From positions 1 through 35,243 of the forward strand of contig CACXCI010000069.1 of assembly GCA_902766105.1 (NCBI GenBank): DNA of 35,243 nt. Direction: 5' to 3'. A program made the translations under genes and the position numbers. Numbering within the stretch: position 1 is the stretch's first letter; each line of letters opens with the position of its first letter. Positions 4,068 to 6,683 of this stretch are shown piece by piece. This stretch comes from an uncultured bacterium (GTDB lineage: Bacteria; Cyanobacteriota; Vampirovibrionia; Gastranaerophilales; Gastranaerophilaceae). The notes below the pieces were generated by a model. That model worked only from the letters and a program-made list of their open reading frames with translations, was not told where the DNA came from and searched no databases.

Positions 4068-5426
4068 ATGTTTAGAAAAGTTTTGATAGCAAATAGAGGC
4101 GAAATCGCCGTAAGAATTATAAGGGCATGTAGAGAACTTGGAATACCAACGGTTGCAATATATTCTCAGGCGGATGCAAATTCTTTGCATGTCAGACTTG
4201 CCACTGAGGCATATTGTATAGGACCGGCAAAAAGTGCAGACAGTTACTTGAGTATTCCGGCAATAATGTCAGCGGCAATGGTATCAGGTGCTGATGCAAT
4301 TCACCCGGGATATGGGTTTATGTCAGAAAGAGCTGATTTTGTCGAAATTTGCGAAAAACAAGGTATAAAATTTATCGGACCAAGTTCTGATGCTATGCGC
4401 AAAATGGGCGATAAAGCTACAGCACGTAAGACAATGATTGAAAATGATGTCCCTGTTACTCCGGGTACAGGTATTGTTAATACGCCTGAAGAAGTTCAAG
4501 AGTTTGCTAACAGAGTAGGGTATCCGATAATTTTGAAAGCAACAGCTGGCGGCGGCGGAAAAGGTATGAGAATTTGCCGCAATGATGATGAGGTTAAAAC
4601 TAATATGGAACTTTGCCAAGCAGAAGCTAAAAATTTCTTTGGTAATCCTGATGTTTATGCTGAAAAATATCTTGAAAATCCTCGTCATATTGAAGTTCAG
4701 ATTTTAGGCGACAGTTTTGGTAATGTTGTTCATTTGGGCGAAAGAGATTGTTCTATCCAAAGACGTCACCAAAAATTATTGGAAGAAGCACCATCTCCTG
4801 CGATTGATGAAGAAACAAGAGCTCAGATGGGTGCTGCTGCTGTTCGTGCCGCTAAAGCTATCAACTATGAAGGTGCGGGAACTTGCGAATTCTTGCTTGA
4901 TCACGATGGCAGTTGGTATTTTATGGAAATGAATACCCGTGTTCAGGTTGAACATTGCGTAACTGAAATGATTTCAGGCGTTGATATCGTAAGAGAACAA
5001 ATTATGATAGCATCAGGCGAGCCTTTAAGTTATAAACAAGAAGATATTCACCTAAAAGGACATGCAATCGAATGTCGTATCAACGCTGAAAATCCTGCAA
5101 AAGGTTTCATGCCAAACCCGGGTGTAATCTCAGGTTATTTAGCACCGGGAGGTTATGGTGTCAGAGTGGATTCTCATGTTTACCAAGATTACGAAATCCC
5201 GCCATATTACGATTCAATGATAGGTAAATTGATATGCTGGGGACGAGACAGAAACGAAGCTCGCCGCAGAATGTATCGTGCATTGAAAGAATATGTTATC
5301 ACAGGTGTTGAAACAACTTTGCCGTTCCACCAAGATATTATTGAAGATGAAGTATTTATGAGCGGTAATTTTAATACCGGATTTATAGAAGAATACTACA
5401 AACGCAAAGGTATCAAAGAGGGGTAA
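4068..5426 (+). CDS. accC: Biotin carboxylase subunit of acetyl-CoA carboxylase
   Basis: AccC is the ATP-grasp enzyme that carboxylates the biotin of AccB with bicarbonate and ATP. It is 452 residues, typical for the family. It starts MFRKVLIANRGEIAVRIIRA. The glycine-rich ATP loop KATAGGGGKGM lies at about residues 158-167. The metal and bicarbonate site EMNTRVQVEH lies at about 287-296, and the C-terminal domain includes IECRINAE and YYDSMIGKL. A ribosome site AGAGGA lies upstream. It is the third gene of the efp-accB-accC set. The carboxyltransferase genes accA and accD are not in this window. Confidence 0.97.
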   Translation: MFRKVLIANRGEIAVRIIRACRELGIPTVAIYSQADANSLHVRLATEAYCIGPAKSADSYLSIPAIMSAAMVSGADAIHPGYGFMSERADFVEICEKQGIKFIGPSSDAMRKMGDKATARKTMIENDVPVTPGTGIVNTPEEVQEFANRVGYPIILKATAGGGGKGMRICRNDDEVKTNMELCQAEAKNFFGNPDVYAEKYLENPRHIEVQILGDSFGNVVHLGERDCSIQRRHQKLLEEAPSPAIDEETRAQMGAAAVRAAKAINYEGAGTCEFLLDHDGSWYFMEMNTRVQVEHCVTEMISGVDIVREQIMIASGEPLSYKQEDIHLKGHAIECRINAENPAKGFMPNPGVISGYLAPGGYGVRVDSHVYQDYEIPPYYDSMIGKLICWGRDRNEARRRMYRALKEYVITGVETTLPFHQDIIEDEVFMSGNFNTGFIEEYYKRKGIKEG

Positions 5427-5435
5427 ATGGTAATA

Positions 5436-5458
5436 TTGGGCAGGTATGCCCAACCTAC
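5436..5458. repeat. REP hairpin with GTAG tag, downstream of accC
   Basis: TTGGGCA (5436-5442) pairs with TGCCCAA (5447-5453) around a 4-nt loop. On the minus strand the hairpin is preceded by GTAGG (5454-5458), the GTAG tag typical of REPs handled by RAYT transposases. It is the first of three hairpins between accC and the RAYT gene. Confidence 0.55.
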
Positions 5459-5538
5459 AGGGATTTATGACTATTTCATAGATTTAGACTGTTCCTCACC
5501 TACCCTACCCCACAAGGGATGAATCTGTTAATAATTAG

Positions 5539-5558
5539 GTCGGTGTTACCACGCCGAC
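5539..5558. repeat. REP-like hairpin (GTCGG type)
   Basis: GTCGGTGT pairs with ACGCCGAC with one G-U pair and a TACC loop. It is flanked by TTAG and A, as in the hairpins at 3357 and 10971. The stem differs from its relatives at paired positions, which suggests selection for pairing. Confidence 0.55.
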
Positions 5559-5609
5559 AAATGTGTAAGTTAAGTTTTCAGCCTAACAAAATTTTAATAT
5601 TATAGCCAT

Positions 5610-5640
5610 GTAGGGTGGGCAAAGCGAAGCGTGCCCACCT
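5610..5640. repeat. REP with GTAG tag immediately upstream of the RAYT gene
   Basis: GTAG (5610-5613) is followed by GGTGGGCA (5614-5621), which pairs with TGCCCACC (5632-5639). Apart from its loop (GA instead of ATCA) it is identical to the reverse complement of the copy inside the RAYT gene at 5936-5966. It ends 14 nt before the gene's -10 region. Confidence 0.75.
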
Positions 5641-5653
5641 TCATATAATCTTG

Positions 5654-5662
5654 TGGTATAAT
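5654..5662 (+). promoter_or_regulatory. Extended -10 promoter of the RAYT gene, leaderless
   Basis: TGG-TATAAT (5654-5662) ends 6 nt before the ATG at 5669, so the predicted transcription start is the A of the ATG. The -35 position falls in the REP and does not match consensus. Confidence 0.65.
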
Positions 5663-5668
5663 TAAAAT

Positions 5669-6217
5669 ATGTCAAATTATAAAAGGTTTTTCAGCAAAGA
5701 TTATAATATAATTTTTTTCACAATAGTAACGAACAATCGTATTCCTGTTCTTATCAATAATATAGAAATTTTGCGAAAATCTTTTTTATATGCAAAAAGA
5801 AAGCACTTGTTTGAAATTGTTTCATGTGTTGTGTTAAATGACCACATACATTTAATTTTAAAATTACAAAACACAAACGATTATCCTGAAATAATTCGCT
5901 TAATAAAATATTATTTTTCAATACATATTAAAAATGGTGGGCACGCTGATGCTTTGCCCACCCTACAAAATTTCTGCAGTAAAAGAAAAAAACGAGAAAA
6001 AGGGGTTTGGCAAAGACGTTATTGGGAACATACAATTCGTGATGAAGCCGACTTTAACAAACATATCGACTATATTCATTACAACCCCGTAAAACATGGT
6101 TATGTTAAAAAGGCAAAAGACTGGCAATACTCAACATTTAAAAAGTTTGTTTTGGATGGGTTTTATGATGAAAATTGGTGTGATTTTTCAAACGTAAAAG
6201 ATTTAGATTTTGAATAG
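5669..6217 (+). CDS. REP-associated tyrosine transposase (RAYT, IS200-like Y1 family)
   Basis: RAYTs are domesticated relatives of IS200/IS605 transposases that nick single-stranded REP hairpins. The protein is 182 residues. The metal-binding HUH motif is LNDHIHLIL (His59, His61). The C-terminal signature WQRRYWEHTIRDEADFNKHI continues DYIHYNPVKHGYV; Tyr135 is the likely nucleophile. Residues 90-100 (GGHADALPTLQ) are encoded by a REP copy inserted in frame. REPs with GTAG tags sit just upstream, as expected for a RAYT with its substrates. No insertion-sequence ends are visible. The stop lies 4 nt from the convergent transglycosylase gene. Confidence 0.9.
   Translation: MSNYKRFFSKDYNIIFFTIVTNNRIPVLINNIEILRKSFLYAKRKHLFEIVSCVVLNDHIHLILKLQNTNDYPEIIRLIKYYFSIHIKNGGHADALPTLQNFCSKRKKREKGVWQRRYWEHTIRDEADFNKHIDYIHYNPVKHGYVKKAKDWQYSTFKKFVLDGFYDENWCDFSNVKDLDFE
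5936..5966. repeat. REP copy inside the RAYT coding sequence
   Basis: GGTGGGCA (5936-5943) pairs with TTGCCCACC (5954-5962) and is followed by CTAC, the GTAG tag on the minus strand. It is in inverted orientation relative to the REP at 5610-5640 and adds residues GGHADALPTLQ without breaking the frame. Confidence 0.8.
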
Positions 6218-6221
6218 TAAC

Positions 6222-6683
6222 TTAAAGACCTGTTTGTTTATATCTTCTGTAATCGGACATTATTCTTGAAACAAAGTGTTTGGAATGCCTTGGGATAGTA
6301 TTGTTGCATCTTGTAATAGCATCGGGGCCTGAATTGTATGCTGCAACAGCAAGCTCCATTGAGCCGAATTTGTTATACATGTTTTTGTAATATGTAATTC
6401 CGCCTTTTACGTTATCTTCAAGATTATATGGGTTCAAACCCATATTTTTTGCTGTTGTCGGTGATAATTGAAACACTCCGATGTGTCCGCATGAACTTTT
6501 TATATCCTGCCTGAAGCCTGATTCTGTTTTTGCAATACTCAGCATAATTTCAGGTTCTACTCCCATTGTTTTTGATTGATTGATGATATTTTGCTTAATT
6601 TCTTCTTGCGTTGCGGCAAAACAAATTCCTGTAGTTGATAGTGCAAGAACAAATGTTAATAAACCTTTGATTAAATTTTTCAA
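6222..6683 (-). CDS. Secreted lytic transglycosylase, SLT family
   Basis: It cleaves the glycan strands of peptidoglycan in the periplasm. The protein is 153 residues with a signal peptide (MKNLIKGLLTFVLALSTTGI, likely cut after CFAA). The SLT domain has the catalytic Glu54 in AKTESGF, GVFQLSP (about 69-75, in place of the common GLMQL) and AYNSGP (about 115-120). The start is a TTG at 6683, chosen because it follows AGGGG and opens the signal peptide. A compact single-domain enzyme of this kind may be housekeeping or serve envelope-spanning machines; the context does not decide. It has its own promoter and converges on the RAYT gene. Confidence 0.9.
   Translation of the reverse strand: MKNLIKGLLTFVLALSTTGICFAATQEEIKQNIINQSKTMGVEPEIMLSIAKTESGFRQDIKSSCGHIGVFQLSPTTAKNMGLNPYNLEDNVKGGITYYKNMYNKFGSMELAVAAYNSGPDAITRCNNTIPRHSKHFVSRIMSDYRRYKQTGL

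Follow-up and report, generated by a model that had tools for sequence, protein, structure and literature searches.

Why does a gene for a REP-associated tyrosine transposase (RAYT) carry, in frame and in the middle of its coding sequence, a repetitive extragenic palindrome (REP) matching the one in front of the gene? The question is raised by a 35,243-nt stretch of DNA from an uncultured bacterium of the Gastranaerophilaceae (contig CACXCI010000069.1 of assembly GCA_902766105.1), referred to here as the window. RAYTs are transposase relatives, mostly single copy and vertically inherited. An initial annotation of the window described the REP at 5936-5966 within the RAYT gene and named a recent insertion, a self-limiting switch and a neutral linker as its explanations. 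In this study, the locus was compared with RAYT genes of the same bacterial family and beyond. Directly supported by the data are the position, orientation and frame of the internal REP, the match of its stem to that of the upstream REP, its complementary distribution with a downstream REP, its synonymous conservation and the compensatory changes in the stem. Our preferred explanation, held with moderate confidence, is that the RAYT has its own right-hand (3') cognate REP at this internal position, where the REP is retained as a DNA element while encoding a disordered stretch that the protein tolerates.

Internal and downstream REPs in RAYT genes of the family

Judged from its sequence, the window protein is a RAYT (TnpAREP). 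It has a Y1 HUH core and matched the NCBIfam model REP_Tyr_transpos with 156.3 bits (cut-off 80) and Y1_Tnp with 32.3 bits (cut-off 23), and H59, H61 and Y135 were invariant across 24 aligned relatives. As annotated, the internal and upstream REPs are inverse to each other apart from the loop: the 17-nt and 12-nt arms are 100% complementary, and the difference is confined to the loop. The reverse complement of 5936-5967 reads TGTAGGGTGGGCAAAGCATCAGCGTGCCCACC, and the GTAG head reads CTAC on the plus strand. When folded as DNA, each REP strand was 3.9-4.8 standard deviations below shuffled sequences, and the palindromes are no product of chance. The annotated peptide was also confirmed, with GGHADALPTLQ forming residues 90-100 of an open frame of 182 amino acids, between the HUH motif (H59, H61) and the conserved tyrosine (Y135). 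The upstream REP ends 29 nt before the RAYT start codon, and the two REPs are about 300 nt apart. No REP was found after the stop codon of the window RAYT, which thus departs from the classical REPtron arrangement with cognate REPs on both sides of the gene.

A search with the window protein detected RAYT genes in 21 of 46 genomes of the genus; an alignment profile, applied to the family, detected them in 101 of 288. The fetched loci among the matches listed yielded 113 distinct full-length RAYT proteins, which served as the comparison set. With intact copies defined by a GT[AG]G-hairpin rule, 35 genes carried an intact REP at the loop and 58 had no trace of one; the remaining 20 were REP-derived and either decayed or altered in the head, a class that includes several genes with a full stem but a tail other than CTAC. 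In all 35 intact cases the GTAG lies on the template strand, which is the orientation of the classical downstream REP. The element occupies the same loop in the relatives, directly after a conserved FS. The short type, a hairpin of 8 bp and a 4-nt loop with CTAC or a variant behind it, is always read in one frame, giving the peptides VGQVCPTY, VGVETPTY, VGLESPTY, VGLVNPTY, VGLVKPTY and VGVATPTY, whereas the longer type was found in three genes only (window, L006, and L007). The window observation is real and is one case of a state that is widespread in this bacterial family.

A recent insertion unique to the window was rejected, as L006 and L007 carry the REP at the same place and L001 and L006 share just 96 of 153 residues outside the loop. 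The expectation that homologues would lack exactly the 11 encoded residues was not borne out either; loop length varied, and was 13-34 amino acids in all but two of the 113 proteins. Presence of the segment in all homologues, which would have made it part of the family fold, was likewise discarded: 58 of the 113 relatives are without a REP-derived segment, and TnpAREP of E. coli is without the loop. What stands of the annotation is an in-frame REP between HUH and tyrosine that is no part of the family fold.

The AlphaFold2 model of the window RAYT had a mean predicted local distance difference test score (pLDDT) of 83, with residues 91-110 below 50, and the loop that houses the internal REP is disordered in this model. 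The model had the same fold as the E. coli TnpAREP bound to its REP (4ER8; E 1.4e-15). The REP segment aligned between F84 and K91 of 4ER8, and was placed after helix 69-95 (alpha-C) and before strand 119-122, the helix and strand names being matched by eye. On the strand just past the segment, W114, Q115, E120, H121, and R124 correspond to E. coli W94, Q95, E100, H101, and R104, residues that Quentin et al. (2018; PMC6006769) discuss for GTAG recognition.

RAYTs without an internal REP were usually classical, with a plus-strand REP mostly 18-40 nt before the start codon and a minus-strand REP mostly 2-30 nt past the stop codon. RAYTs with an internal REP retained the upstream REP and in most cases had none downstream. 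A minus-strand REP within 150 nt downstream was found in only 2 of the 32 genes with an intact internal REP, compared to 45 of the 71 others (Fisher 2e-8; of the 113 genes, 10 whose flank on one side was shorter than 150 nt were dropped, and the Fisher tests, like the codon permutation below, ignore relatedness). When all REP-derived loops were taken together, the downstream REP was present in 5 of 55, and in 42 of 54 other genes (p 8e-14; 4 of the 113 with less than 150 nt downstream were dropped). The difference persisted among genes with an upstream REP (4/34 vs. 33/37). A search for hairpins irrespective of the head gave 8/32 and 43/53 downstream (p 6e-7) and no difference upstream. The five genes that combine a REP-derived loop with a downstream REP are L124, L092, L074, L018, and L034. 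In L092, L074, and L018 the internal copy is decayed or altered and the downstream REP is kept, and in L034 the downstream match is doubtful.

Conservation of the hairpin and competing explanations

The classical RAYT unit consists of two inverted cognate REPs around the gene. Under our preferred explanation, the second REP would in this lineage be supplied from within the gene (upstream REP on the plus strand, internal REP on the minus strand) and not from just past the stop codon. The enzyme would bind both hairpins in single-stranded DNA, and the internal copy would be maintained by selection for that binding, or because one REP repeatedly converts the other. Only the promoter and the 5' half of the gene would then take part in any excision or copying between the two REPs.

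The nucleotide sequence of the hairpin argues for such a role as DNA. Internal and nearest upstream stems were identical in 26 of 27 genes (shuffled mean 7.0, maximum 15). For conserved residues, codon identity inside the REP exceeded that outside in VGVETPTY (0.95 vs. 0.64), VGQVCPT (0.94 vs. 0.64), VGLV (0.89 vs. 0.56), and in the window type (22/26 or 0.85 vs. 190/312 or 0.61). Among 20 distinct short-type REPs, 147 of 160 stem cells were paired, while permutation of synonymous codons gave a mean of 132.6 and a maximum of 142 (3000 permutations). The changes in the two arms of the stem are coordinated; GTT, for example, pairs up with CCA and GTC with CCG, silently on both sides. These data agree equally with selection on the hairpin and with its repeated conversion by the other REP, and poorly with drift of a neutral insert.

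These results bear on the view that the internal REP is a neutral passenger, according to which REPs land widely, no part of the gene other than the flexible loop tolerates an in-frame copy, and shared descent accounts for the rest. Quentin et al. view the insertions in subclass 2.4 of TnpAREP in much the same way. The disorder of the loop (pLDDT below 50 at residues 91-110) and its variable length and sequence agree with it, as do the few independent origins and the 20 decayed or altered copies among 113, which indicate that loss is tolerated. Against it stand the range of codon identities (0.85-0.95 in the REP, 0.56-0.64 outside), the coordinated synonymous changes in the stems, the stem match to the upstream REP in 26 of 27 genes, and the absent downstream REP. 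We consider a neutral passenger unlikely; the neutral linker of the initial annotation is disfavoured as well, since the nucleotide sequence is held tighter than the peptide requires, and the results speak against the published neutral-linker reading of REPs inside RAYT genes.

Concerted evolution without function, in which the internal copy is repeatedly overwritten from the upstream REP by recombination or RAYT-mediated copying, would account for the full identity of the two REPs, loop included, in 19 of 27 genes. Such sequence does get copied, as REP and adjoining loop sequence stand as extra copies between accC and the RAYT gene in L012, L026, and L032. This account leaves the missing downstream REP unexplained, as well as the excess of upstream REPs with intact over decayed internal copies (24/32 vs. 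7/18, p 0.016), and we give it a low probability.

An RNA switch is another candidate, in which the upstream and internal REPs pair in the mRNA into a long duplex around the start codon, which restricts translation or is cleaved. Positions 5600-6000 folded as RNA gave -101 kcal/mol against a shuffle mean of -65, with the REPs paired to each other. The inverse REPs of the classical arrangement could pair likewise. Moreover, of the 75 loci with an upstream REP, 25, the window included, had the extended -10 motif TGNTANNNT at -15 from the start codon, when 2.8 were expected anywhere in the last 27 nt; a general sigma-70 scan of the region gave no more than chance. The motif suggests that these RAYTs are leaderless, with a transcript starting after the upstream REP and the REP at the place of the -35 element. 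An RNA switch would then need read-through from accC; a role in DNA is thus preferred over one in RNA, and we regard the switch as very improbable.

In a stronger version of the DNA role, the internal REP would be dual-coded and selected, being recognition site and enzyme loop in one. Enzyme and target could then not be separated by recombination, and action on the pair would halve the RAYT's own gene, which would act as a brake on self-mobilisation. We put this forward tentatively and consider it rather doubtful.

Several observations weigh against the internal REP being the right-hand cognate REP of the gene. In the window genome (1.89 Mb), a whole-genome palindrome search for GGTGGGC-N5..20-GCCCACC returned exactly two matches, the upstream and the internal REP (reversed-pattern controls 0), and a search with the 17-nt arm found nothing else closer than 3 mismatches; one of two 3-mismatch matches is an old REP of another type at 5443-5459. 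Thus neither a dispersed REP population nor inverted REP pairs of the REPIN kind exist in this genome, the sole pair being that at the RAYT gene itself, and activity of the window RAYT on REPs is not visible there. L124 has a downstream REP in addition to an intact internal one, and the upstream plus-strand REP is absent in 8 of 32 intact cases. Five of these eight (L106, L121, L034, L041, and L093) have a plus-strand REP after the gene instead; L007, L026, and L012 had no plus partner in the scan, L012 and L026 having a GTAA-headed hairpin before the gene. L100 and L117, of the window's own clade, had no REP at all in the scan. In the betaproteobacterial locus L220 (MEQX01000051.1), the gene contains a cognate REP between HUH and tyrosine (nt 307), which is accompanied by upstream and downstream REPs and is therefore an addition and no replacement. 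Finally, an independent-pairs sign test on the tree, which holds 6 changes of loop state, found 4 pairs and was not significant. The association between internal and downstream REPs is strong in counts and rests on few independent events.

The tree also has three or more groups that bear REPs (the large VG group, L134/L031, and that of the window), with many forks weakly supported. The RAYT proteins are under purifying selection, as deduced from ratios of nonsynonymous to synonymous substitution rates of 0.10-0.30 in eight unsaturated pairs of nine computed. A candidate for the state before the REP entered the window gene is the frameshifted RAYT L286 of the related genome G096, the two pieces of which agree with the window protein at 29 of 45 and 66 of 103 residues. 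Its upstream REP has the same letters as that of the window, an inverse REP lies shortly after the stop codon, and the loop is free of REPs. L286 has higher protein identity to L100 and L117, both without a loop REP. Genome G096 has 22 copies of the window REP type, compared to 2 in the window genome.

Broken RAYT genes and the region after accC

In broken RAYT genes, the break frequently lies at or within the internal REP. Among 12 broken loci, L020, L033, L136, and L137 begin with the internal REP and L023, L138, L135, and L141 inside it, while L139, L140, L142, and L022 do neither. Seven loci have 5' pieces, and those of L274, L275, and L279 terminate within the internal REP, in contrast to L276, L277 (contig end), L278, and L280 (frameshift). 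Eight further broken loci comprise two with a REP at the break (L281 and L285) and six with none or only remnants.

These pieces do not amount to proof of cutting by the RAYT within its own gene at that REP. L279 and L138, from the same genome, flank an insertion sequence that splits the RAYT in the internal-REP loop, a situation also seen at L023 and L135. We take this element to be IS3-like, from motifs of its frames matched by eye. Insertion sequences that target REPs exist. For L020 and L033, recombination between direct copies of the REP after accC can account for the breaks, and the detection of broken pieces may be biased toward breaks in the loop.

The stretch after the biotin carboxylase-like gene (accC) is a hot spot for RAYTs in the genus, occupied in L009, L010, L012, L020, L026, L032, L033, and the window. 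Five of these loci hold a full-length VG-type RAYT, L020 and L033 hold a 3' half that starts at the internal REP, and the window holds a RAYT of another clade. The copies of the internal REP with adjoining loop-coding sequence that stand upstream of the gene in L012, L026, and L032 were either copied or left behind.

Relation to known systems and features of the window locus

REPs in frame inside RAYT genes are already known as a general phenomenon. Quentin et al. (2018; PMC6006769) describe in-frame REPs in tnpAREP genes as unique to subclass 2.4 (RAYT group 4) and additional to flanking REPs, and state that they may have little effect on the protein. As there, the window gene has a REP of its own family in frame between HUH and tyrosine. 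Set against that description, it differs in its motifs (DHIH and YIHYNP in place of NH[IFV]H and YIxNNP), in the site of insertion, here the loop after alpha-C, and in the missing downstream REP. New here are the absent downstream REP, the stem matching, the synonymous conservation, and the different protein loop. A Pfam Y1_Tnp search of 20 cyanobacterial genomes for subclass 2.4 returned mostly IS200-like matches and one gene with an NNP motif.

Compared to the subclass 2.2 motifs (DHLH, WE, and YIHYNP), the window protein has the same YIHYNP, a near DHIH and a differing WQ; E. coli 4ER8, which the same authors place in subclass 2.2, also reads WQ. With the E. coli REPtron the window RAYT shares the fold, the tyrosine region, and the GTAG-contact residues, and it differs by its loop, which the E. 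coli protein lacks between F84 and K91. In E. coli, REPs are known only from outside the TnpAREP gene.

REPINs, reportedly described by Bertels and Rainey in 2011, are said to be inverted REP pairs. The window pair is likewise an inverted pair of cognate REPs; unlike REPINs, its members are about 300 nt apart and span the promoter and the 5' half of the RAYT gene, and dispersed copies are missing from the genome. Intragenic REPs and Rickettsia palindromic elements (RPE) are treated by Di Nocera et al. (2013; PMC3733652). The window REP resembles RPE as a palindrome in frame in a protein gene; unlike RPE, which as described there occupy many unrelated genes, it has one intragenic and one extragenic copy, and its host gene is that of the presumed enzyme. 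An RPE-like spread through other genes of the window genome was therefore rejected, and the further in-frame copies suggested by the annotation (HADALPTLQ-type peptides) do not exist. A literature search, with subscription papers and supplements outside its scope, found no other report of REPs inside RAYT genes or of RAYTs in Melainabacteria/Gastranaerophilales.

An internal REP as a general trait of cyanobacterial RAYTs was rejected as well, being found in none of 40 other cyanobacterial loci with both flanks of at least 150 nt, of which 14 had the classical cognate pair. In a wider contig collection, 2 of 55 distinct loci had an internal REP, namely L175 (a metagenome-assembled genome of Cyanobacteria, UBA1186) and L220; proteins identical to ones already counted entered this count once, under their first locus, and a motif scan that kept identical proteins found internal REPs in 7 of the 55 genes of that collection.

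A lineage with the second REP in the gene, beside classical relatives, provides a natural experiment on the purpose of the REP pair, and suggests that a pair enclosing the entire gene is not required. A target site within the gene also makes the REP testable by silent recoding. The features of the locus are compiled in Table 1.

Table 1. Coordinates of the RAYT gene, its REPs and neighbouring features in the window.
Feature	Position	Strand	Basis or remark
RAYT / TnpAREP gene	5669-6217	+	open frame, 182 aa; HUH and Tyr motifs intact
Upstream cognate REP, TGTAGGGTGGGCAAAGCGAAGCGTGCCCACC	5609-5639; GTAG head 5610-5613, hairpin 5614-5639	+	sequence, fold
Internal REP	5936-5966; hairpin 5936-5962, GTAG head 5963-5966	- (template strand)	codes residues 90-100
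Variable loop, residues 85-113, helix alpha-C to strand beta-4	5921-6007	+	houses the internal REP
Extended -10 promoter-like element, TGGTATAAT	5654-5662	+	15 nt before ATG; consensus match only
Biotin carboxylase-like gene	4068-5426		RAYT neighbour; named by eye
Small gene	6222-6683	-	RAYT neighbour

The interval from the biotin carboxylase-like gene to the RAYT gene contains two more REP-like palindromes, both of other types, at 5436-5459 (TTGGGCAGGTATGCCCAACCTACA) and 5539-5558 (GTCGGTGTTACCACGCCGAC), which are probably remnants of earlier RAYT units. In L021 (G033:C9), the loop contains a unit of about 15 residues four times in tandem (VETPTYKYLNNDEKGW), in which the REP-coded peptide and the residues after it are expanded as an in-frame tandem repeat.
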